IMG/VR virus record: IMGVR_UViG_3300028653_000014
Span: 19,070 to 83,069 of that record
Length of the DNA stretch: 64,000 nt
Strand: one strand, 5' to 3'
Origin: a virus
Under the pieces are notes generated by a model. That model ran no database searches, had not been told where the DNA came from, and saw only the letters and a program-made list of their open reading frames with translations. Numbering within the stretch: position 1 is the stretch's first letter; each line of letters starts with the position of its first letter. The position numbers and the translations under genes were made by a program. This document shows positions 2,472-54,916 of the stretch, in pieces.

Positions 2472-2509
2472 GAAAAGAGTCGCCTACTGGAGAGCGGGCG
2501 GCTCTTTTC
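2472..2509 (-). terminator. Hairpin terminator candidate
   Basis: Thirteen-base arms at 2472-2484 and 2497-2509 pair with one G-U, loop 12 nt. On the minus strand an A-rich run precedes it and TCAAAAC follows. It separates the small-gene block (2601 and above) from the HNH-dnaB operon. Confidence 0.55.
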
Positions 2510-2588
2510 GTTTCTTAGGGGCGCCAGTATCGCACGACGCCCGGCGGAAGTCTACGGGACCCGTGAACAGAAGATGCCGCACGGAGCG

Positions 2589-2604
2589 GTCACGCGGGCG
2601 TTAC
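2589..2604. promoter_or_regulatory. 16-bp palindrome, operator/stoperator candidate 1
   Basis: GTCACGCGGGCGTTAC fits the window-wide consensus GTNACGCNNGCGTNAC, whose ten fixed core bases (TNACGCNNGCGTNA) recur 13 times here. The TAA stop of the 2601-2852 gene lies inside the right half-site. A dimeric DNA-binding protein is the likely reader (inference). Confidence 0.75.
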
Positions 2605-2852
2605 CCGAGGATGCGCTGCTTGCCGGGTGCGAGATAGTGGTACGTCTCCCACCACCCGTCACAGCCGGGACGTGCGCAGACGCGCCACGACTCCATCAGC
2701 GCACCGATGTTCGGGTCGTAGTCGTGTCTCTCCGGCCCCCACTTGTGGCCGAGGAGACGACACCGCCACGTCTTGACCGGGTACGAGAGTACGTAGAGGG
2801 CATCGCGCCAGCCCGCATCCCGTGACCAACGCAGGAAGGCAATCGGCCTCAC
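2601..2852 (-). CDS. Small protein of unknown function
   Basis: 83 aa from the GTG at 2852, which makes a GTGA overlap with the upstream gene; an ATG 21 nt further up would give a longer overlap. Contains CRLLGHKWGPE and CARPGCDGWW, suggesting a metal-binding fold with C, H, C and C ligands. It ends in a TAA located inside an operator-like palindrome. Confidence 0.7.
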   Translation of the reverse strand: MRPIAFLRWSRDAGWRDALYVLSYPVKTWRCRLLGHKWGPERHDYDPNIGALMESWRVCARPGCDGWWETYHYLAPGKQRILG

Positions 2853-3190
2853 GTCTCCGCCATGCAGTCGCACTCCTTACCGGCGTGGTCTTCGACCTCG
2901 TGAACGCGCTTCCACAGCCGAAAGTAAACCGGCCCTATCTCGTCCGGCAGTTCGCCGCCTGGAGGCAGTTCCCCGTCTGCAAGCTCGACGTCGCGATCAA
3001 GCAGCGCCGTCCTCACGTCGAGGAACTCCTCCGCCTCGACGCAGTCGTCCGAGTCGACCAGCATCCGTTTCGCCTGCCCGCGCGTCTCCGCGATGAAGAT
3101 CCCGCACGGCACGTAGAACTCGCCCGGGTCGGGCCGCTCGTAGCTCATCCCGGCCGTGCGCCCTTCCAGATGGCACCAGTAGGCGTTCAC
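2849..3190 (-). CDS. Hypothetical protein
   Basis: 113 aa, start at 3190 with ATGA overlap to the preceding gene. Acidic; contains CGIFIAETRGQAKRML and ends in CDCMAET. No family recognised. Translational coupling on both sides supports it being real. Confidence 0.7.
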   Translation of the reverse strand: MNAYWCHLEGRTAGMSYERPDPGEFYVPCGIFIAETRGQAKRMLVDSDDCVEAEEFLDVRTALLDRDVELADGELPPGGELPDEIGPVYFRLWKRVHEVEDHAGKECDCMAET

Positions 3191-17582: not shown

Positions 17583-20500
17583 CTAACGCGTCGCCCCGGT
17601 GAGATTCGTCGACGTCTTCTTCTGCCTGCCAGGGTTACGGCCGAGCGCGTTCGGGTTCACCTTCACGGCCTTCTCCGCCGCAAGGGTGTCGGCGATCGTC
17701 TTCGTGTTAGTCGCGATCTTCTTCTGCAACGCCGTGTTCGCCTTCGCGATTGTCAACTGCTGCTGCGCGACGTCGCGTTGCTGCTGCGCCACCAGCAACG
17801 CCGGTTGCACGATTGTGGCCTCCTGGCCGCTCCCGGTCGCGCCGCCCGTGAACCCGTTCAACGCCTTCGCCTGATCCTGGATGCCCTTCAGTTGCGCGTT
17901 GAAACCGTCCGCGAACGACGTGCCGAGCAGCTTCCCAGCCGTCTTGTAGCTGACCCCGTCCCTCTTCAGCAACGCCAGCAACTGATCGCGCCCCTTCGTG
18001 ACCGACAGCCGCCCGGTGTTGATCCCGTCCGTGATGTCGTTGATCGTCCGGGTCGCGGTGATCTTCCGCTGGTTCACCTGATCCTGGGCAACCGACAGGG
18101 ACGCCTGCTGGTACTGCTGCAGGAACGACTCGATGTACGGCTTCGTCGCCGTCGACGCCTTCGCGGCCAGCGACTGCAGTTCCGCAACCGCCTTGTTCGG
18201 GTCGGTCGACAACTGCTTGCCGCCCGGCAGCAGCGCGCTCCGGCGCAACTGGTCGAGCGAGAGCTTGTTTTGGGCCAACGTCAGCTTGTTCTGGAGGTTC
18301 GTCAGCGGCTGGTCGAGCACCGACCCGACACTCGACGCCAACGATTGCCCGATCGATGCGAGGTTCTGCTTCGCCTGGTTGATCGAGTTCGTCAGGTCGA
18401 TGGCGTTCTGCTGGATCGTCTGGCCGAGTTTCTCGTTCAGCAACCCGATCCTCTGCTGGGCCTCAGAGATCGCCTGCGCGTTCGTGTTAGAGGCCGTGGT
18501 CGCCGCCGCGATACCGGACTTCAGTGCCGCCTGGATCTGATCCTGGGCGCCCTGGATGGCCGCGTTGATCGGGTCGAGGAACAACGTCGCGAACCTCTGC
18601 CCGGCCGTCTGCGCTGAGGCAGCAGACAGCGGGTCGGGTAGCGCGTTGAAGAGAGCCGCCACACCGTTCCCGAGGCCCTTCCCCTCAGCGACCGCAGCCG
18701 TCAGCGACTGCGTGAAGTTGTCGCCTGTAGCCGTCCCTGCGTTCGTCGCGTACTGCGGCAACTCGTTCAGCCTCGTGACGATGTCACTGAGGCTCGTGGT
18801 GGCACTTCGGTTGTCGAGGATGAAGTTGATTTCCTTCTGGGTCGGTATCCGCCCGACCGTCAGGGTGAACTGAGAGAGCAGATCGAGGTTCTGACGTATC
18901 GTGGGCGTCAGGTTCTTCTGTGCGGCGGCGTCAGCCTGAATGCCCTGAGCGAAGTCGAGCGCCGCCTTCTGACGTGCTGCAGCAAAGTTTGACGCCGACT
19001 GGCCGGGGGTGGCCCCGACACCAGCACGCGTCCCACCGATCGGAACGTTGGCGTTCGTCGCCTGCGTCTTCAACGCCGCCACGAGGTCCTGTGCGGTCTT
19101 CTTCGCGGCAGTCTGACCTGTGGAGATTTTCGTCAGGTCGCTCTGGTACTGCGCCCGTGCGGCCTTTTGCTGCTGCAACGCCGCGTCAAGGTCGAGCACC
19201 GCCTGCTTGTAGGCAAGCGTTCCCTTCTTCCCGGCCGAGAGTTCGCTGTTCGCCTTCGCCTGCTGCACCGCGAGGTTCGCCTGCGCCAGAGAAAGTTTGT
19301 CCTGCGGGGTCGCCGCGAGTGCGGTGTTCAGATCGGTGATGCTCGATACGAAGTTTCGGTTTGCAGCCGTCGCGTCCGACTCCCGCGTTGCGAGATAGAC
19401 AATCCCGGCGGTAAGCCCGGCGATACCGACAACCGCAAGACCGACCGGGCCGGTCAGAGCGGCGATCCCACCCGCCAGCAGGCCGACGCCCTCCGCCCCG
19501 CCCGCCTCTACCGCCGATGCCGCTATCGCCTCGTTCGCAGCCACGACGGCAGCCGCGTTCGTCTCCACCGCCGCCGTGGTTGAGAACAGCCCTTCTACGA
19601 GCAGACTCAGGTTGCCGATGATCGTCCCGATCTTCCAGCCGAACCAGACGGCAGCCATGATCTTCACGGCGTTCCCCAATCCGCCCACGGCGCTGATGAC
19701 GGCCTGCAGGGGCGGCAGCACCGTCGACAGCACGTCCTTGACGCCGCCGATGATCTGCTTCGCGTCCGAGAGGGCCGAGTTCACGTCGCGCTGCAACTTC
19801 CCGGACTGCGTCATCTTCGTCAGCCATGCCCCGAGTTCCGACGTCAGACTCGACAGGGCCGGGAGCAGTGCGGCACCGATCACGTCCTTCGCGTTCGAGA
19901 ACGCCGCCGACAGTTGCCGCTGCTCGTTCGCGTAGTCGTGCGCGTGCGCGGCGGCCTGCTGCTGGAACTGGCCGAGATTCTCCGTCGCGAGCGCGTAGAT
20001 CGCCTCAGCCTTCTGCGCCGGGTTCAACGCCTGCGTGATCGAATCCGTCAGGCCCAGTTTGAACGCCGCGATCTTCTCGGACGTCGTGTCGACCGAGATG
20101 CCGAGTTGCTTCAACCCTCGGGTGTTGCCTGCCGCGGCCAGCACGATGCTCTGCAGCACCTGTGAAGGGTCGACGCCCTTGATCGCGGACAGTGACCCGG
20201 CGAGAGACTCGAACCCCTGAGTCATCCGGGCCGCCAACGACGGCGCGATGTCGAGGTTCTTGAAGAGGATGCCGAACCGCGCCGACGTGGCGTCCGCCGT
20301 TTGGGCGCTGATCCCGAGCGCCTGAGCGCCCTTCTCACCAAACGCCGTCAGCGCGTCACCCGACTTGCCGAACTCCTCCTGGATCACCTCCTGCGACTTC
20401 TGCAGGTTCGCGGCGCTGCCGACGACGTCCTTCGCGAACTTGACCGCGAACGCCGCCCCGATCCCGACGCCCAGCACCTTCGAAAGGCTGAACACCTTCG

Positions 20501-47506: not shown

Positions 47507-47522
47507 GTCACGCGCGCGTTAC
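47507..47522. promoter_or_regulatory. 16-bp palindrome, operator/stoperator candidate 11
   Basis: GTCACGCGCGCGTTAC holds the TAA of the zinc-finger gene (47519-47521) and overlaps the -35 region of the protease promoter. Confidence 0.8.
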
Positions 47523-47827
47523 TCCTCCTCGTACTCAAGCGGAATGTAGAAATGCTCGGCAAGCCACTCAACTGCCTCGGCGAACTCAAGTCCCTGAATC
47601 TCCTGGACGAACTGGATGACGTCGCCCCGCTTGCGACACCCGAAGCAGTAAAAGAGGCCCACATCCCCTGTACTCACGGCAAAGCTCCTCTTGCACTTTC
47701 CGTTGAAAGGGCAGAAGCCGACCCAGCGTTCACCTTGCTTTCTGAGAGCCGTCCGGTTGTCGATCAACTCCACAATGTCGACAACCTGCCGCACGACCAT
47801 GACGGAGGAGTCCTTGATACGCGCCAT
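47519..47827 (-). CDS. Stand-alone CHC2-type zinc finger of DnaG primase
   Basis: 102 aa from the ATG at 47827 (TGATG overlap). VVDIVELIDNRTALRKQGERWVGFCPFNGKCKRSF, FYCFGCRKRGDVIQFVQEIQGLEFAEAVEWLAE matches the N-terminal primase zinc-binding domain, with the usual CPFH replaced by CPFN and a compensating Cys three residues on. No TOPRIM catalytic domain follows. It could be a primer-template binding factor, a decoy or an inhibitor. The TAA stop lies in a palindrome. Confidence 0.8.
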   Translation of the reverse strand: MARIKDSSVMVVRQVVDIVELIDNRTALRKQGERWVGFCPFNGKCKRSFAVSTGDVGLFYCFGCRKRGDVIQFVQEIQGLEFAEAVEWLAEHFYIPLEYEEE

Positions 47828-48681
47828 CACCGGTCGCTCCACGGCTCGGGCATTTCCCCGTTCTTCACAGCGAGAATCCCGACTTGCTTGCCGTCGCGCC
47901 ATTGGTTCATCGCCTTCAAGTTGTAGAGCAGCCATGTCTGGGGATGCTCGTTCGTCCGTTTTGCCATCGTAAGAATGGCCCATCTCCGATAGGTGAGAAT
48001 AGGGTCTTTCGCGGTCAGCCCTTCGCCTGTTGATGCGAGCCGCCAGAACTCCGCCGCCGCTTCGGGGTCGACGCGCGAGTTGAGATACAGCGCTACGGCC
48101 ACGGGCGTCCGTGGAATCCGTAGATTCACGTAGACAGATTTAGCGAGAGTGACCGCTTCTCGTATGCCGCCGTTGTCTTCTATCCACGTAAGTGCCTCTG
48201 ACCGTGACGGCCAGTCTGTCTGCTTGAAACGATGGTGTTCATATCGCCATGCCATGTTCGCGGCAGCGGCGAGGTCTTTCGACGCTCCTTCGGTCCCGGT
48301 GACGTGCATGGCGTGCTGAAGCGTTCTCGACCTTCCCGAGTCGACGAACTGGATCGCCCGCTCCTCGTTCGGTATCCCGCGCACGACGACGGACTGGATA
48401 GCGACCCCGGATTCAACGATGGCCCAGAGTCGATGCTGGCCGTCTAGGAGTCTCCCGGACTCCCCGAAGATGATGGACTCGCCCGTGAGGATGTACTCGC
48501 CTTTGCTCATGTCCCTGGCGATTCTCGTTACGACTAGCTGAGCTACAGGACGGTTGAGTCCGTTCAGTTCAAGCCATTCCGCCGCAGTTTCGGGCGTGAT
48601 GATTTCGATGGTCACACTGACGTCCGCCAGGTCGAGGGACGCCAGAAGATCACGGACTTCCAGTGAGGAAGATCGCGTCAC
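47827..48681 (-). CDS. ParB/sulfiredoxin-like nuclease-fold protein
   Basis: 284 aa from GTG at 48681 with AAAAGGAG 9 nt upstream. TIEIITPETAAEWLELNGLNRPVAQLVVTRIARDMSKGEYI and FGESGRLLDGQHRLWAIVESG carry the ParB/Srx fold signature (G-LLDGQHRL-A). The rest is helical with no clear HTH. In phages such proteins are often DNA-binding regulators or nucleases. Has its own sigma-70-like promoter and is coupled to the CHC2 finger gene. Confidence 0.78.
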   Translation of the reverse strand: MTRSSSLEVRDLLASLDLADVSVTIEIITPETAAEWLELNGLNRPVAQLVVTRIARDMSKGEYILTGESIIFGESGRLLDGQHRLWAIVESGVAIQSVVVRGIPNEERAIQFVDSGRSRTLQHAMHVTGTEGASKDLAAAANMAWRYEHHRFKQTDWPSRSEALTWIEDNGGIREAVTLAKSVYVNLRIPRTPVAVALYLNSRVDPEAAAEFWRLASTGEGLTAKDPILTYRRWAILTMAKRTNEHPQTWLLYNLKAMNQWRDGKQVGILAVKNGEMPEPWSDR

Positions 48682-48734: not shown

Positions 48735-51686
48735 TCATTGCCCGAACGAGACTGAGCATCTGCAGTTAGCTACCTGCGAGACGTCACCATCTGGATCACC
48801 GGGGTAGTTCAGCGCGAACCCGTCAACGTCGAACGCCTCCTCAAGAGCGCGCTGCTGACCGTCGAGGCCGTCCACGAGTTCGTGTCGCGGATACAAAGCT
48901 CCCGGAGCCGTCATCCAAGTCTTGGGCATCGTCGAGCCGGTCGCCTGCCCGACGAGTTGCGCCGACGTGACCGCGGCGCCGTTCGCCAAACCGGTCATCT
49001 CCGTATTTCCCGTGTAGACGCCGTTCGCGATAAAGTACCCGTACGGCGTGCAGAGGTTGAAGACATAGCCAGCGAACGAGACCAGTCGACTCGCGATCAC
49101 GCGGTCCAACTGTATGTCTCCGGTCTCAGCGCGCGGGTGGTCGGGTCGGCTGTCGGCGTGGATAAGAGCGTCGTGCTGCGATGGGTCGACGCAGCCGGAA
49201 TACCTCGTCGCACTCTTCAGGAGGCTCGTGCTTTGTTCTTCGAGAACGGCGGGAACGTCCATAACCGCCGAGACGACATTAACGCTGCCGATGTGATCGA
49301 ACGCTTCAACTCGGGACGGGCGGTGAAAAAGATCGCCGGGGATCTGGACACGAGCGGAATTGTCATCCGACGAATCCTGCTCGAAAACGGGATCACCCCT
49401 CGAAACCCCGCAGAAGCAGGCGCTCTGGTCAATCGCCAGCAAGCCTCCGCACTCCGCGCAGAAGGGCGAATGTCCCAGTACGTCGGCTGGGGCGAAGACA
49501 TCATCGCCGAGATGCTCTCCGAGAGGGGCGAACATCCCGAGCGACAATTCCCCGTCGGGCCACGCAATCTCGACCTCGCCCTCATGCCCGTCGCCGTGGA
49601 AGTCTGGCTCTCCTCCGCTTCGCCTCTCAATGATCCCTACTGTCGCGACCGTCTCGAATATCTCAGCGATCGTGGCTGGTGGATTTGCTACATCTTCATC
49701 GCGCGCCGCACTCGGGTTTTGGTTCCCGAAGTAGCAGACGAGATCGTCTCCTTCGTTGAGTTCGCCCGCAGTTCTCCAGCCGCCGCGCGTGAGCATCGGG
49801 TGATTCGGGGTTGCGGTGAACTCGCGGCCAGATTCCATGACGATGACCGCCATGTCTCCCTCGTACCACCGTCTCGTGACTGCCCGCACCACAGCACCAT
49901 CAACAAGCGTCTCCGCGGGTAGACAGCGCGCGATCAGGGTGGAGCGGGTGACTGACGCCTGCTTCATGCCGGACCGGATCGCCTCGGCCGTGTCGGGGAT
50001 CGACAGTCCGGCCTGGTACGACTGGCCGATGATGTCCATCACGTCGGCCTGGGTCGTCTCGGTGATGTTCGTGACCTGGCTGGCGGACTTCGCGAGCACC
50101 CCGCTGATGAGCGGGTTGTGGACGTCCCAGTTCAGCCCGGCCGCTTCGAGGACAGGGGTCATGGCGGACTTGATGAACGCCTGCCGGATCGGCTCGGTGC
50201 GCGCCTTGATCTCAGCGATCAGCGCGGTCACGTCGAGGACTTCGGCCGGGGCGGGCGCTGTCCACTGCGGCGGGGTCGGCGTCGCGTCCTGATCGCCCGC
50301 GGCGGTCAACTGGCGAACCCCGGTCAGCGGGAAGTCTGCGACCACCTGGTTGCCCTGCACGATCTTCAGCGAGTCGAAGTGGAGTGGCGCGCCGAGTGTG
50401 GCCGTGTCGGGCGGCGCAGTCGAGTCATCCCGGTAGGCGATCGTCCCGTGTGGCTGGTAGCCGTGGTTGCGCGCGTAGTCGGCGTCCGCGACTAGCACCG
50501 CCGTACAGACCGCCTGGCGCAGCTCGACAAGCCCTGGCACGTCGGGAAGAACGATCGCTGGTGTCCCGTTGCCCTGGTCTTGGAACGCGCCGACACCGCC
50601 GACTGTCCCTTCGAGCGGCGGGTGAGACGCTGCGACGCGGGTGAGTGCGGTACGTACGGCGTCGACGGTCTCCTCGTCGGTGTCTCCGAGGTACGCGAGC
50701 GTCACGTGGATGTCCTCGGGCTTCTCGCCTCCCGTCTCAGCGATTGCGGCAGCCTCAGCCGGGCGCGGAAAGAGTGCGATCATGGTTGAGGCGCTCGTGA
50801 TGTCCGCAGCGGCCGTCAGCGCAAGTGACGCGAGCAGCGCGCGGCCTTCCTCCAACCCGATCGCACCGAGCGCGTCCCGGTCGGCACGGCGGGCAAGCGA
50901 GGCGGTGAGATGGTTCGTGACGCGGGACTGGAACGTGCGGGCCGCCTGCTCACCGGCCTGCTCTAGGATCGGCTGGATCGCGGCGGCGAGCTTCGGCTCC
51001 AACGCGTCGACGCGCTTCTGCGCCTCCGCCAGAACCTTGTTGTGGAGCAGAGGCGGGACGACCTTCGCGGGCGGCGCGGACTGCGGGGCGGCGTCGGCGG
51101 TCACGGCGTGGTCGGATTCTAGCCTCACCCATTCGTCACACACGTTCGACGGCGACACCGGCGCCCCGAACATCAGGCAGACGGCGTTCTCGTAGAACTT
51201 GCAGGTCGCGCAGGCCACGTCGGGGTCGTCCGATGCCCGGTAGTGGACGCGGGCCGGGATGCCGTCGTCCACAGGCTTGTCCCCATCTGTGGATTCGGCG
51301 AACGCCCGCTCGACGTGAGCCGCGACAATGGCAGGAAAGACGGCCTGGCGCGCATCTTCCGCAGTGGCGGGTTTGAGGATGTCGCTCAATCGAACCTCGT
51401 CGAACGCGGAGTCACGGACGACGCGAAACTCAAGTCCGCCCGGATTCGGGTTGGCGGCGGTAACGCGGGCGTTACTCGCAACCGTCCTGGCAGGGGAGAC
51501 CGAGGCTGGAACGCCGCCGTCCTCCCAAGCGTTGCAGAGCCGATCTCCTTGCACGGTCACGTCGAACCGTCCGCACTGGTCGACCGTCCCAGCGCCGTAG
51601 AACGAGCACGTCGCGCACGAGACCGCATGGGTCGGCGCAGGCCGGTACTGCTCCGACGCGGGGATCGTCCCGCGCCCGTCGTTCAC
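48735..51686 (-). CDS. MuF-type head morphogenesis protein fused to a 2H phosphoesterase, with intein
   Basis: 983-aa precursor from GTG at 51686 (GTGA overlap). Extein 676 aa: two Cys modules (CATCSFYGAGTVDQCGRF...C and CATCKFYENAVCLMFGAP...C); a 2H phosphoesterase domain ~300-455 with HVTLAYLG (~327-334) and HGTIAYRD (~413-420); then a helical MuF-like domain (RSTLIAR|TEMTGLANGAAVTS, TWMTAPGALYPRHELVDGLDGQ) ending VANCRCSVSFGQ. MuF/SPP1 gp7-like proteins act between portal and capsid. The intein splits the conserved IAR-TE motif. Confidence 0.87.
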   Translation of the reverse strand: MNDGRGTIPASEQYRPAPTHAVSCATCSFYGAGTVDQCGRFDVTVQGDRLCNAWEDGGVPASVSPARTVASNARVTAANPNPGGLEFRVVRDSAFDEVRLSDILKPATAEDARQAVFPAIVAAHVERAFAESTDGDKPVDDGIPARVHYRASDDPDVACATCKFYENAVCLMFGAPVSPSNVCDEWVRLESDHAVTADAAPQSAPPAKVVPPLLHNKVLAEAQKRVDALEPKLAAAIQPILEQAGEQAARTFQSRVTNHLTASLARRADRDALGAIGLEEGRALLASLALTAAADITSASTMIALFPRPAEAAAIAETGGEKPEDIHVTLAYLGDTDEETVDAVRTALTRVAASHPPLEGTVGGVGAFQDQGNGTPAIVLPDVPGLVELRQAVCTAVLVADADYARNHGYQPHGTIAYRDDSTAPPDTATLGAPLHFDSLKIVQGNQVVADFPLTGVRQLTAAGDQDATPTPPQWTAPAPAEVLDVTALIAEIKARTEPIRQAFIKSAMTPVLEAAGLNWDVHNPLISGVLAKSASQVTNITETTQADVMDIIGQSYQAGLSIPDTAEAIRSGMKQASVTRSTLIARCLPAETLVDGAVVRAVTRRWYEGDMAVIVMESGREFTATPNHPMLTRGGWRTAGELNEGDDLVCYFGNQNPSAARDEDVANPPATIAEIFETVATVGIIERRSGGEPDFHGDGHEGEVEIAWPDGELSLGMFAPLGEHLGDDVFAPADVLGHSPFCAECGGLLAIDQSACFCGVSRGDPVFEQDSSDDNSARVQIPGDLFHRPSRVEAFDHIGSVNVVSAVMDVPAVLEEQSTSLLKSATRYSGCVDPSQHDALIHADSRPDHPRAETGDIQLDRVIASRLVSFAGYVFNLCTPYGYFIANGVYTGNTEMTGLANGAAVTSAQLVGQATGSTMPKTWMTAPGALYPRHELVDGLDGQQRALEEAFDVDGFALNYPGDPDGDVSQVANCRCSVSFGQ
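48882..49922 (+). CDS. Antisense HTH plus Vsr/DUF559-like homing nuclease inside the MuF intein
   Basis: Reading frame of up to 346 aa opposite the MuF gene. The protein-like core is residues ~74-300 (49101-49781): two HTH repeats (YVSGLSARVVGSAVGVDKSV, FNSGRAVKKIAGDLDTSGIV) followed by a Vsr/DUF559-type nuclease (EDIIAEMLSERGEHPERQFP, NLDLALMPVAVEVWLS, RLEYLSDRGWWICYIFIA). The core fits exactly between the splicing blocks on the other strand. Start is uncertain: no ATG, GTG or TTG occurs between 48885 and the HTH, so the ATG at 48882 is the only conventional one. Expression or remnant status cannot be told from sequence. Confidence 0.6.
   Translation: MSRIQSSRSRHPSLGHRRAGRLPDELRRRDRGAVRQTGHLRISRVDAVRDKVPVRRAEVEDIASERDQSTRDHAVQLYVSGLSARVVGSAVGVDKSVVLRWVDAAGIPRRTLQEARALFFENGGNVHNRRDDINAADVIERFNSGRAVKKIAGDLDTSGIVIRRILLENGITPRNPAEAGALVNRQQASALRAEGRMSQYVGWGEDIIAEMLSERGEHPERQFPVGPRNLDLALMPVAVEVWLSSASPLNDPYCRDRLEYLSDRGWWICYIFIARRTRVLVPEVADEIVSFVEFARSSPAAAREHRVIRGCGELAARFHDDDRHVSLVPPSRDCPHHSTINKRLRG
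49005..49925 (-). mobile_element. Intein in the MuF-type gene, without in-frame nuclease
   Basis: 307 residues from Cys1 (codon 49925-49923, CLPAETLVDGAVV) to VYTGN (N codon 49007-49005), followed by Thr+1. Block B FTATPNHPMLTRGGWRT. Residues ~63-275 encode no recognisable endonuclease in frame: sequence there is Gly/Asp/Glu-rich and corresponds to the reverse complement of the plus-strand nuclease. C-terminal block VFNLCTPYGYFIANGVYTGN. Confidence 0.87.
51460..51475. promoter_or_regulatory. 16-bp perfect palindrome, operator/stoperator candidate 12 (intragenic)
   Basis: GTAACGCGGGCGTTAC inside the 5' part of the MuF gene, encoding S-N-A-R-V-T. Confidence 0.65.
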
Positions 51687-51868
51687 AGTTCGCCCTTCCA
51701 CGACTCGATCACCTCTCGGAGCGCCCGTGCCTTCTCCGCCACCGCGTCCGTGATGAGCGCCTCGTCGGCGTACTCGATCTCGACGAGCAGGTCGAGTGCG
51801 GCGGCGGTGAACTCCGTCAGCACGAGCGACGGGCGCAGCCTCACGTACAGCACCGCTTCGCCCGGCAC
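51683..51868 (-). CDS. Small acidic helical protein
   Basis: 61 aa from GTG at 51868. AVLYVRLRPSLVLTEFTAAALDLLVEIEYADEALI; a two-helix protein between portal and MuF genes, coupled by GTGA to the MuF gene. Unknown function, possibly a scaffold or chaperone. Confidence 0.62.
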   Translation of the reverse strand: MPGEAVLYVRLRPSLVLTEFTAAALDLLVEIEYADEALITDAVAEKARALREVIESWKGEL

Positions 51869-51871
51869 GGG

Positions 51872-54800
51872 CTACTTGCCCGCCGTCAGCAGTCCCTGAA
51901 CGAACTGCGGGAACGAGTCCGGCATCAGTTGCGGCTTCAAGTCGTACAGCGTGCGGGCCGCGTGCTTCTCGATCGTGTCCGCAATCGACGTCTGCACCCC
52001 GTCGTCCGTGATCCCGAACACCCTGAGCGCGTCGAGGATCAACGTGCGGGCGCCGCCGACGAGGGCGGCCTCTGACGGGACGTTGGGGAGGTTCCGCACG
52101 CGCGCACGTCCCAGAGTGGCTGCAACGTCGCGTGCCGGGACGCCCTCTATCAGCGCGAGGGTTTCATCGTCGCGACGTGCGAGCGTCCGTAGGCGGCTTC
52201 CTGCGGCCTCACGAGCACGTAGGAGCGCCAACTGGGCGGCGCCCTGAACCATCACCGTCTGTGCCCGCTGCGCGGACGCCACGACCTCGTTGTCGACCCC
52301 GGCCGGGTCGTCCTTCGGCACAGGCGGCGTCTTCTCGACGTCGGCCGCCGTGACTCCGCCATCGCCTGTAGTGCCACCGTCTGGACCGGGCGAGACGAGC
52401 GTGTCCGAGTCCGGCTCAAGTTCGGAGTTCTGCCTGAGCGACGGGACGCCGTAGACAGCCAGCGACGGGTCGCGCAGCTTGACGCCGAGCCAACGGTTCC
52501 GCTCCTCCTCGGTCGGCGCGTCGTTGTCGCCGAAGTTCGCGACACCGCGCAGCGCCTCGTCACCGATGACGCCACGGTCGTGGAGGTCCTTCGCGTCCTT
52601 CGTGCGGTCCGGATGGTTGATGACCGCGGTCGCGTCGTACGCGATCACGTATTTCCCCCAGTCCGCGATGTTCTGATCCATCAGGTACGGGGACAGGTAG
52701 GCGTCCGTCAAGTCCTGCACGAGCGAATCCGCGACAGGCTGCAGGTGGTACTTCCACGTGATCTCGTCGATGTTCCAGGCGCTGTTGCCGGTGAAGAACG
52801 TCCGCCCGTCCCGCCGCGCAAGCCATGTGCGGTTCACCGTGGTGGGGCACCAGACGACTCCCGAGTAACTGACTATCTCGTCCGTGGCGCCGTCGTCGTT
52901 GAACTGCCGTCCGGCTTCCTGCGCCGCCTTGACAGGCCGTACCGCCAGAGAGCGCAGCGCCCGCACGACAACACCGCCATCGTGTGACGGTTGCCGGGAG
53001 GCGGCGCGGCCCGAGAGGATCACCGCAAGCTCGAATGCGTCGAGCCGGGCCGGGTCCTTCTGCCAGACGTCGAGTAGGCCGCCGCGGTAATGATGGCCGT
53101 CCCCCTGGCAGGAGACGTCGATGAAGAGTTCTAGTTGCGCCCTGCTCAGCGCCGAGATGAACTCCGGGCTGACGCATTTCGACGGCGCGATGTCGAGCAG
53201 GGGCTTCGACGCCTGCTGGTTCAGGTGGAAGACGGTGATGGGGACGCCGTGACTTCCATCGTTCTGCTGAATGGCCTCACGCCATGCCGGGACACCGAGC
53301 ATCCTCGTCTTGCCGACCGATGGTCCGTAGAGACGGGTCAGGCAGCCGCGGATGCGCTCCACCCTGTCGGCGTTCCGGGTGTGGGACTGAGCGATCGACA
53401 GCGTCTTGCCTCGCGCGTGTCCTTCCGTCCAGAACCAGGCGGCAAGCTCTACTAGATCGTCCGGAACGACGGCAAGATTCTCGTCGCCCGCGAACGCACC
53501 CGTGATGATCGAATCGGCAGCGGTCAGGCGCTTCGTTGTCGTCCACTCCCGCGATACGTACGGAACCTTGTCCTTGTGCCGAAGCCGTGTAACCGGCCAG
53601 CGATGGTTCAGCGTCGTGAGCGAACTGTGCGTGCGACTCTCCAGCCGACGCATCGGCTCGTTCGTCACGCCAGCGCGATAGATGTCCAGAACGGGCTGCC
53701 ACTCGGCGAGGCCGGTCTCGTGATTGAGAGTGCGTACGACGTCGCCCGTTTCGAGGTCGTCGTGCGTCACCCATCCTCTGTCCTTCGTCAGAATCTCCGT
53801 CGATTCGTCCGAGCACCAGTGGTTGACGTCGCCCAATCCGAGAAGGACTTCGGGCGGCATGTCGAGCGAGACGGCGAGGCGGCGGATGCACTCGTCGCGC
53901 AGCCCGGTCTCCGGGTACACCTGGGTCGGGTCGATGATCTGGAGATGGAAGACCAAGTCGGAGAGTTTCATCCCTTCAGGGACGCGCACACGGGCGACGA
54001 GCGGTACGACGGCCCCGGCGGTGCCTTCGTTGATGATCGGCTTCGTCATCGCCTCCGTCAGGTCGGCGAGGAACGGGTCCTCCTGCGGGTCCTCGTCCGG
54101 GGCGGCCTCTGACGGGGTGGTGGTGATCCGGTCGTCGATGAACAGGACGCCGGAGCCTGCGAGGCGTGACCGGGCGCGGGCACGGACGGCCTGCGTGAGG
54201 AGCACGTACTCCTCCAGGATGTCCAGGCACGCCATGACGGACGAGTCGGCCAGCGACGACCAGCGCGGATGCCGTTTCCAGATCCGGTAGGCGACCGCCG
54301 TGTCTGCGAGCGGCTCGAAGTCCTTGTCGGGGGCCGGGTAGAACTGGTTCGCGGGAAGCTGCGGCGCCTTGAAGCGGGTGTAGAGGCCCTCGATCAGCCG
54401 CACCTCGTCGGTGGAGAGCATCTCCCACTGTTCCAGCTTCGTCCGCTGGTTGATCGTGACGAGCAGATACGCCTCGCCGACGAGGAACATCAGGCGGCCG
54501 TAGTTCGCCAACAGCCCGGTGCGCCCGGTGCCGCCCGGGTCTTTGATCCGGGCGAGCGCGTCGATGACGACCTCGTTCTTCGTACGGACGACCTCGCCCG
54601 TCTCCTCGTCGATCTCCCCGGCGAACAACTCCAACTGGGCGAGTGCGCGGCTGTAGAACTGGGCGGCGTACTTGAGCGGCCCGACGATATCGTAGTAGCC
54701 CATCGCGCGTACCTGCCACGCCTGGATCAGTCGGCGCAGATAGGTCGCGTCGCCGTGCTGCACCAACTCCCCTGCCGCGGTGAGTGAGCCGGGCTGCTCT

Positions 54801-54916
54801 GCCCGGAGCCGATCCATTTCGGCCCGGACGGCGTTGTGGCGTGCGCTGACCCGATCAGGGGACGCGTCCTTATAGAGAACCGGGGTTGTGTCGCGGCGGC
54901 GACTGAACAGCGCCAT
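51872..54916 (-). CDS. Portal protein interrupted by an intein
   Basis: 1014-aa precursor; extein 670 aa. Residues 1-367: RLIQAWQVRAMGYYDIVGPLKYAAQFYSRAL, ANYGRLMFLVGEAYLLVTINQR, and the portal crown-like SLDMPPEVLLGLGDVNHW immediately before the intein. The C-extein starts SAWNIDEITWKYHLQPVADSLVQDLTDAYL, the conserved portal helix, followed by a linker and a helical C-terminus. Forms the dodecameric DNA gate at the capsid vertex. The intein sits in the GDVNHW-SAW junction, a highly conserved site. Confidence 0.9.
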   Translation of the reverse strand: MALFSRRRDTTPVLYKDASPDRVSARHNAVRAEMDRLRAEQPGSLTAAGELVQHGDATYLRRLIQAWQVRAMGYYDIVGPLKYAAQFYSRALAQLELFAGEIDEETGEVVRTKNEVVIDALARIKDPGGTGRTGLLANYGRLMFLVGEAYLLVTINQRTKLEQWEMLSTDEVRLIEGLYTRFKAPQLPANQFYPAPDKDFEPLADTAVAYRIWKRHPRWSSLADSSVMACLDILEEYVLLTQAVRARARSRLAGSGVLFIDDRITTTPSEAAPDEDPQEDPFLADLTEAMTKPIINEGTAGAVVPLVARVRVPEGMKLSDLVFHLQIIDPTQVYPETGLRDECIRRLAVSLDMPPEVLLGLGDVNHWCSDESTEILTKDRGWVTHDDLETGDVVRTLNHETGLAEWQPVLDIYRAGVTNEPMRRLESRTHSSLTTLNHRWPVTRLRHKDKVPYVSREWTTTKRLTAADSIITGAFAGDENLAVVPDDLVELAAWFWTEGHARGKTLSIAQSHTRNADRVERIRGCLTRLYGPSVGKTRMLGVPAWREAIQQNDGSHGVPITVFHLNQQASKPLLDIAPSKCVSPEFISALSRAQLELFIDVSCQGDGHHYRGGLLDVWQKDPARLDAFELAVILSGRAASRQPSHDGGVVVRALRSLAVRPVKAAQEAGRQFNDDGATDEIVSYSGVVWCPTTVNRTWLARRDGRTFFTGNSAWNIDEITWKYHLQPVADSLVQDLTDAYLSPYLMDQNIADWGKYVIAYDATAVINHPDRTKDAKDLHDRGVIGDEALRGVANFGDNDAPTEEERNRWLGVKLRDPSLAVYGVPSLRQNSELEPDSDTLVSPGPDGGTTGDGGVTAADVEKTPPVPKDDPAGVDNEVVASAQRAQTVMVQGAAQLALLRAREAAGSRLRTLARRDDETLALIEGVPARDVAATLGRARVRNLPNVPSEAALVGGARTLILDALRVFGITDDGVQTSIADTIEKHAARTLYDLKPQLMPDSFPQFVQGLLTAGK
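52784..53815 (-). mobile_element. LAGLIDADG-like intein in the portal gene
   Basis: 344 residues, from Cys1 (codon 53815-53813, CSDESTEILTKDRGWV) to FFTGN (N codon 52786-52784), then Ser+1. Block B LTTLNHRWPV. Paired LAGLIDADG-like helices LVELAAWFWTEGH and LELFIDVSCQGDGHH, the first with Glu in place of the usual Asp, so nuclease activity is uncertain. The end (VVWCPTTVNRTWLARRDGRTFF) is clearly related to the lysozyme intein's. Confidence 0.87.

Follow-up and report, generated by a model that had tools for sequence, protein, structure and literature searches.

Inteins are usually classed as mini-inteins, split inteins or inteins that carry an in-frame endonuclease. A further arrangement, termed 'fractured genes' and reportedly described by Dassa and co-workers in 2009, is said to comprise split inteins whose separate halves flank a free-standing EDxHD/Vsr nuclease gene. 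On the wider question of coding by complementary strands, the Rodin-Ohno hypothesis derives the aminoacyl-tRNA synthetases from sense/antisense coding of ancestral genes. Antisense homing endonuclease genes, expressed and active, have been found in nuclear group I introns of Didymium squamulosum (PMC9548176). Here we analyse a 64,000-nucleotide stretch of viral DNA ('the window'; positions 19,070 to 83,069 of IMG/VR record IMGVR_UViG_3300028653_000014), in which a MuF-like minor head gene contains what is very probably a homing intein whose own codons, read on the complementary strand, encode its endonuclease. A first-pass annotation, made by a model from the sequence alone, had drawn attention to this locus.

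The MuF intein and its antisense nuclease gene

The MuF-like gene occupies positions 48735-51701 on the minus strand (PHROG head morphogenesis) and has a 2'-5' RNA ligase-like region at its N-terminus (Pfam 2_5_RNA_ligase2). Joining the flanks of the intein gives an extein with a weak match to Pfam Phage_Mu_F. The 307-residue intein is inserted between ...STLIAR and TEMTG.... The first-pass annotation had placed a splicing intein at 49005-49925, and on the minus strand these boundaries are exact: the intein starts with Cys1 (CLPAETLV) and ends with GVYTGN, Asn307 being followed by Thr as the +1 residue. Block A, with the N-terminal Cys, lies at 49887-49925, block B (TPNHP) at 49797-49811, block F (GYVFNL) at 49053-49070 and block G (YTGN, then Thr) at 49005-49016. 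The TxxH motif of block B, T39-P-N-H42, is invariant across the family. The N-terminal Cys with block A, the block B motif and the C-terminal Asn before Thr are as in class 1 inteins. The intein passes the NCBIfam profile intein_Nterm (TIGR01445) with a score of 25.3 against a cut-off of 24.5, and matches Pfam Intein_splicing with E=7.9e-7, yet under the gathering score of that family. MuF is one continuous frame in the window and in annotated phage records, with no split of the intein into separate genes.

On the plus strand, the same DNA contains a nuclease gene of 285 codons plus TAG (49065-49922), which is identified by its relatives, its phase and its predicted structure. The two frames are in exact codon register, with nuclease residue i opposite intein residue 288-i. 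The nuclease frame starts inside block F, crosses block B and ends at intein codon 2, where the stop codon (TAG, 49920-49922) is the complement of the Leu2 codon CTA in block A. The start position is opposite Tyr287 (TAT), and the upstream Shine-Dalgarno-like AGAGGT (49052-49057) is the complement of block F codons. The protein consists of a helix-turn-helix (HTH) domain at residues 7-43 (49083-49193; AlphaFold helices, and Pfam HTH families in relatives), a second HTH domain at residues 74-107 (49284-49385; AlphaFold helices and resolvase/Cbp1 HTH matches) and a Vsr/EDxHD/PD-(D/E)xK-like catalytic domain at residues 144-258 (49494-49838), which features near-invariant E144, Q161, D170 and E179. 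Block B is opposite nuclease residues 246-249 (VIRG), and in a doubly constrained core at 49590-49601 nuclease V176-A177-V178-E179 is opposite intein F109-H110-G111-D112. The nuclease had initially been described as filling exactly the region between the splicing blocks; the antisense nesting stands, but the overlap continues through the blocks.

The block F His codon supplies, as its complement, the nuclease start, which across 68 distinct loci reads ATG in 50, GTG in 12, ATA in two and TTG in one, with no start in three. The Shine-Dalgarno sequence is the complement of the Asn-Leu-(Gln/Glu) codons of block F; its core is present in 58 of the 68 loci, compared with 14.8% at control antisense-His sites. 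Codon usage in block F is skewed accordingly, His being CAT in 50/62 cases (21.2 expected) and Leu being CTC in 48/66 (20.1 expected). In 24 distinct loci the Leu2 codon of the intein provides, as its complement, the nuclease stop, and Leu2 is CTA or TTA in 24/29 (3.1 expected).

Predicted structures of the two proteins

AlphaFold predicts the nuclease as two HTH domains and an alpha-beta nuclease domain, with a predicted local distance difference test (pLDDT) score of 90.4. The best solved match in Foldseek is the homing endonuclease I-Bth0305I (PDB 3r3p) with a probability of 1.00 but an E-value of about 0.01, and 3hrl is also close. Sequence profiles, too, place the nuclease near I-Bth0305I (E=7e-5). 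E144, D170 and E179 align with both structures; the His-Asp part of EDxHD is not clearly recognisable. Matches of the nuclease profile to stathmin were disregarded as helical low-complexity. Fold and profile thus support the original reading of the plus strand as a homing nuclease with two HTH repeats and a Vsr/DUF559-like domain, antisense in a splicing intein.

In the intein, residues 1-70 and 271-307 are predicted to be folded, mostly with pLDDT above 90, and residues 81-130 have values of 71-92. Residues 131-266 are mostly predicted to be disordered. Foldseek identifies a Hint fold, matching the Mtu RecA, RadA and gp41-1 inteins with probabilities of about 1.0. The DNA for the catalytic domain of the nuclease therefore lies opposite the folded N-terminal splicing domain, and that for the HTH domains opposite a disordered linker. 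Of the central ~210 intein residues that the first-pass annotation described as the reverse complement of a nuclease gene, about 50 (81-130) belong to the folded splicing domain.

Recurrence among phages

A tblastn search with the plus-strand protein against annotated phages returned 47 records. Ten representatives, from Gordonia, Klebsiella, Cronobacter, Pseudomonas, Haemophilus and Salmonella phages and the virus Rctr197k, are 21-37% identical to the window protein. In all ten, the nuclease lies opposite a gene annotated as MuF, head morphogenesis or hypothetical, always in this same codon-aligned phase, and the MuF frame is open throughout. One depositor annotated the antisense open reading frame (ORF), as a hypothetical protein. 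A scan of IMG/VR added at least 441 confirmed relatives. Both the plus-strand protein and the intein thus have homologues. Over the match, the codon-aligned antisense frame is free of stops in 89 of 90 related loci, and the other two antisense phases have several to many stops in most of these loci. We do not claim loci with one nuclease-frame stop as decayed copies, as these seem mostly to be matches running beyond the true nuclease stop. The antisense frame is also open in AT-richer phages such as Aaphi23 (41% GC).

When loci were picked by their intein instead, 80/80 carried the nuclease profile antisense. The intein is matched by about 70 Salmonella phage records, most of them Jerseyvirus, and all three representatives examined carry the nuclease. 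A single-protein search matched one bacterial contig; among 399 genomes of its phylum, the full protein occurs only in that genome, and eight further matches are partial. One candidate, L012, is identical to the window sequence and was assembled from another sample; we rejected it as a relative, since it is the same sequence.

The host genes of antisense-nuclease inteins include MuF, at several sites, and uracil-DNA glycosylase. The latter applies to L043, L055 and L077, in which the same intein apparently sits inside uracil-DNA glycosylase genes (Pfam UDG for L043). Possible portal and tail host genes were noted, by reading only, in L079 and L091.

Selection on both reading frames

With nuclease synonymous codons left free, ~304 stops would be expected in the intein frame of 69 distinct loci. 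None was seen; these loci had to carry both blocks in one open frame, and an unselected count of 90 loci agrees. In the reverse calculation, leaving intein codons free in 59 loci picked by intein, 339 nuclease-frame stops would be expected and again none was seen. Stop-bearing plus frames, which the first-pass annotation had named as evidence against its reading, were thus absent.

The pattern of variation differs along the element. In 21 disjoint pairs of loci, nuclease codon position 1 is the most variable in the regions of the splicing blocks, where the intein is constrained; in the core, position 3 of the nuclease is the most variable (0.53 vs 0.41 for position 1) and the nuclease is constrained. 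Close pairs show the same switching of constraint. In the pair L046/L172, third positions differ by 0.64 in the extein and by only 0.35 in the nuclease.

Individual codons carry both signals at once. The catalytic Glu179 is encoded by GAA in 65/72 cases, compared with 26.3 expected from extein usage. V176, A177 and V178, which precede it, are encoded by GTC in 54/56, GCC in 66/68 and GTG in 64/68 (22-26 expected each). These locked VAVE codons are exactly those that write FHGD on the opposite strand; a control Glu in the same nuclease has normal codon usage. The codons of block B TPNH and nuclease VIRG are locked likewise. The locked codons are retained among loci whose third positions are otherwise saturated. 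At the codon level, these patterns demonstrate that both frames are under purifying selection, with the dominant strand switching along the element. Constraint is found on both strands, not on the minus strand alone, which would have counted against the first-pass reading.

Empty alleles and transfer of the intein

The joined flanks of the inteins of Gordonia phage Vivi2 and of Jerseyvirus match intein-free Gordonia and Salmonella relatives in one piece, with codon-exact junctions. The intein-free matches are to Brandonk123 (94.3% over 400 nt) and SF4 (91% over 300 nt). The Jersey and E. coli phage E2010 inteins differ by 0.03-0.11 at the most variable positions, compared with 51% of third positions in their exteins. 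L173 and L175, from a Jerseyvirus phage of Salmonella and a phage of E. coli, have near-identical inteins in MuF exteins that are only 81% identical, which suggests recent horizontal transfer of the intein. The pattern is reversed between Vivi2 and Angelicage, where the exteins are 98.8% identical and the middle of the intein 72%. L187 was considered as an intein-free allele of the window MuF (91% over residues 46-143), but was rejected because its contig ends inside the intein and is identical to the window.

We propose the following mechanism. On the sense strand, translation of the MuF precursor would include the in-frame intein, which would fold as a Hint domain and excise itself. Judging by the codon evidence, an antisense transcript would be translated from the start codon and ribosome-binding site in block F to the stop in or near block A, yielding the two-HTH, Vsr/EDxHD-like nuclease. 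Cleavage of intein-free MuF alleles by this nuclease would be followed by repair that copies the entire element. With both genes contained in 49005-49925, the splicing and mobility functions would travel together.

A second antisense nuclease and a control intein

Gordonia phage Nordenberg and its relatives contain a different intein at the same MuF site (2381-3205 of L177), in which a codon-aligned antisense ORF (2495-3082) encodes a LAGLIDADG-like nuclease. This nuclease has the motif FIDGEG and matches PHROG_5046 (E=2e-15) and I-MsoI (E=0.0013). Nine Gordonia phage records share the Nordenberg-type intein. Between Nordenberg and Barsten, identity in the middle of the element is 0.885 for the antisense and 0.694 for the sense product, and the order is reversed at the splicing blocks. 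The Nordenberg-type element is a second, independent origin of the antisense-nuclease intein architecture.

The window also contains a portal gene (51872-54916, minus strand) with an intein-like insert of 344 residues (52784-53815, minus strand; CSDESTEI...TFFTGN, followed by Ser). The insert has no NCBIfam or PHROG match and appears to be a conventional in-frame endonuclease intein. We used it as a control: its antisense frames have 4, 9 and 13 stops, the four being in the codon-aligned phase. A short gene elsewhere in the window (47519-47983, minus strand) encodes only a DnaG-type zinc ribbon (Pfam Zn_ribbon_DnaG, E=1e-25); the remainder of a primase is absent.

Alternative explanations

A codon-aligned antisense frame is often stop-free in GC-rich DNA, and even the portal intein has just four stops in that phase. 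Only the intein might then be real, and the plus-strand frame a by-product of antisense reading in codon register. We find this hardly credible, given that the plus-strand protein folds confidently, resembles I-Bth0305I and has conserved catalytic residues, that variation in the core is of the third-position type, that Shine-Dalgarno, start and stop codons are enriched, and that the frame stays open in AT-richer phages. The converse is that only the nuclease is real and interrupts MuF, the intein frame being passively open or non-functional. The core is indeed mainly under nuclease constraint, and the middle of the intein is mostly predicted to be disordered. This explanation is nevertheless very unlikely: all splicing blocks are conserved and dominate the constraint at the ends, the intein frame lacks the ~304 stops expected, and the FHGD codons are locked beyond the need of the nuclease. 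If both frames are real, the nuclease could still serve a purpose other than homing, such as the exclusion of competing phages or late-gene regulation; related nuclease domains are found in large proteins of other function, and homing cleavage is deduced rather than observed. We regard such a role as improbable, since the nearest solved fold is that of a homing endonuclease, the codon-exact presence/absence and the transfer between divergent phages fit homing, and an unrelated LAGLIDADG-like nuclease of homing type occupies the same antisense position.

Several observations weigh against the window element being an antisense-encoded homing intein in working order. The block F His, present in relatives, is Tyr287 in the window copy, and the penultimate His, present as HN in one clade, is Gly306, so that this copy may splice poorly; the penultimate His is absent from some known inteins. 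The nuclease start position is ATA, and expression may be weak. Promoter scans were uninformative and found no promoter-like site for an antisense transcript in the window, and we found no close intein-free relative of the window's own MuF. The expected counts given above take loci as independent although they are related, which overstates the z-scores. Given the ATA start and the lack of the block F and penultimate His residues, the activity of the window copy is uncertain. The family may be as described and this copy decaying, a single change having produced both the block F Tyr and the ATA start and weakened both products. That ATA occurs in just 2/68 distinct loci speaks for decay; the absence of stops and frameshifts in either frame, the retained Shine-Dalgarno sequence and the identical sequence from another sample speak against it. 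Decay is a real possibility, though less likely than not. For the family as a whole, we favour a homing intein whose endonuclease gene lies antisense to it.

Comparison with known systems

The functions proposed here, those of a homing intein, are already known. The architecture is not, as far as a negative literature result can tell: we found no description of antisense homing genes in inteins in the open literature, with key older papers outside our reach, and there such genes are known in group I introns. Inteins with an antisense nuclease would be a further intein architecture, and one that is overlooked because only the long capsid gene appears in gene calls. We consider it probable that they form a mobile-element class of their own, the 'two-strand intein', in which both strands encode folded catalytic domains whose conserved motifs lie back to back, and codons of the splicing motifs supply the start, the ribosome-binding site and often the stop of the nuclease gene. 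The class would have arisen at least twice, with unrelated nucleases (Vsr/EDxHD-like and LAGLIDADG-like). On this reading, well-studied laboratory phages (Jerseyvirus, Vividuovirus) should carry an active nuclease. Such elements are, in addition, a source of inteins and a system in which dual-strand selection can be read codon by codon.

Like inteins with an in-frame LAGLIDADG or HNH homing endonuclease, of which the portal intein at 52784-53815 appears to be one, the MuF intein combines a Hint domain with a selfish nuclease that would invade empty alleles. It differs in that the nuclease is a separate protein, encoded by the complementary strand and outside the intein polypeptide. The 'fractured genes' share the association of the same nuclease superfamily with phage inteins; the MuF intein, in contrast, is continuous, and the nuclease gene overlaps it wholly. 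I-Bth0305I has the fold of the catalytic domain and a sequence profile in common with the antisense nuclease, but it is encoded in a group I intron, binds DNA through other parts, and is not known to have a gene that overlaps a protein frame. In the group I introns with antisense genes (PMC9548176), an endonuclease is likewise encoded opposite its splicing element; there the host is an RNA and the gene lies in a peripheral loop, so that no second protein is written by the same codons. The class would be an extant parallel to the Rodin-Ohno hypothesis, which likewise envisages a pair of folded catalytic proteins encoded in codon register by opposite strands. Here two unrelated folded proteins are maintained, one on each strand of shared codons, in phages that are highly divergent. 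This is a rare natural instance of folded proteins encoded by both strands, and it brings sequence data to a question that is usually theoretical. If our interpretation is true, complementary-strand coding is a repeatable solution; the MuF pair differs from the Rodin-Ohno pair in being extant, recurrent and composed of unrelated folds.

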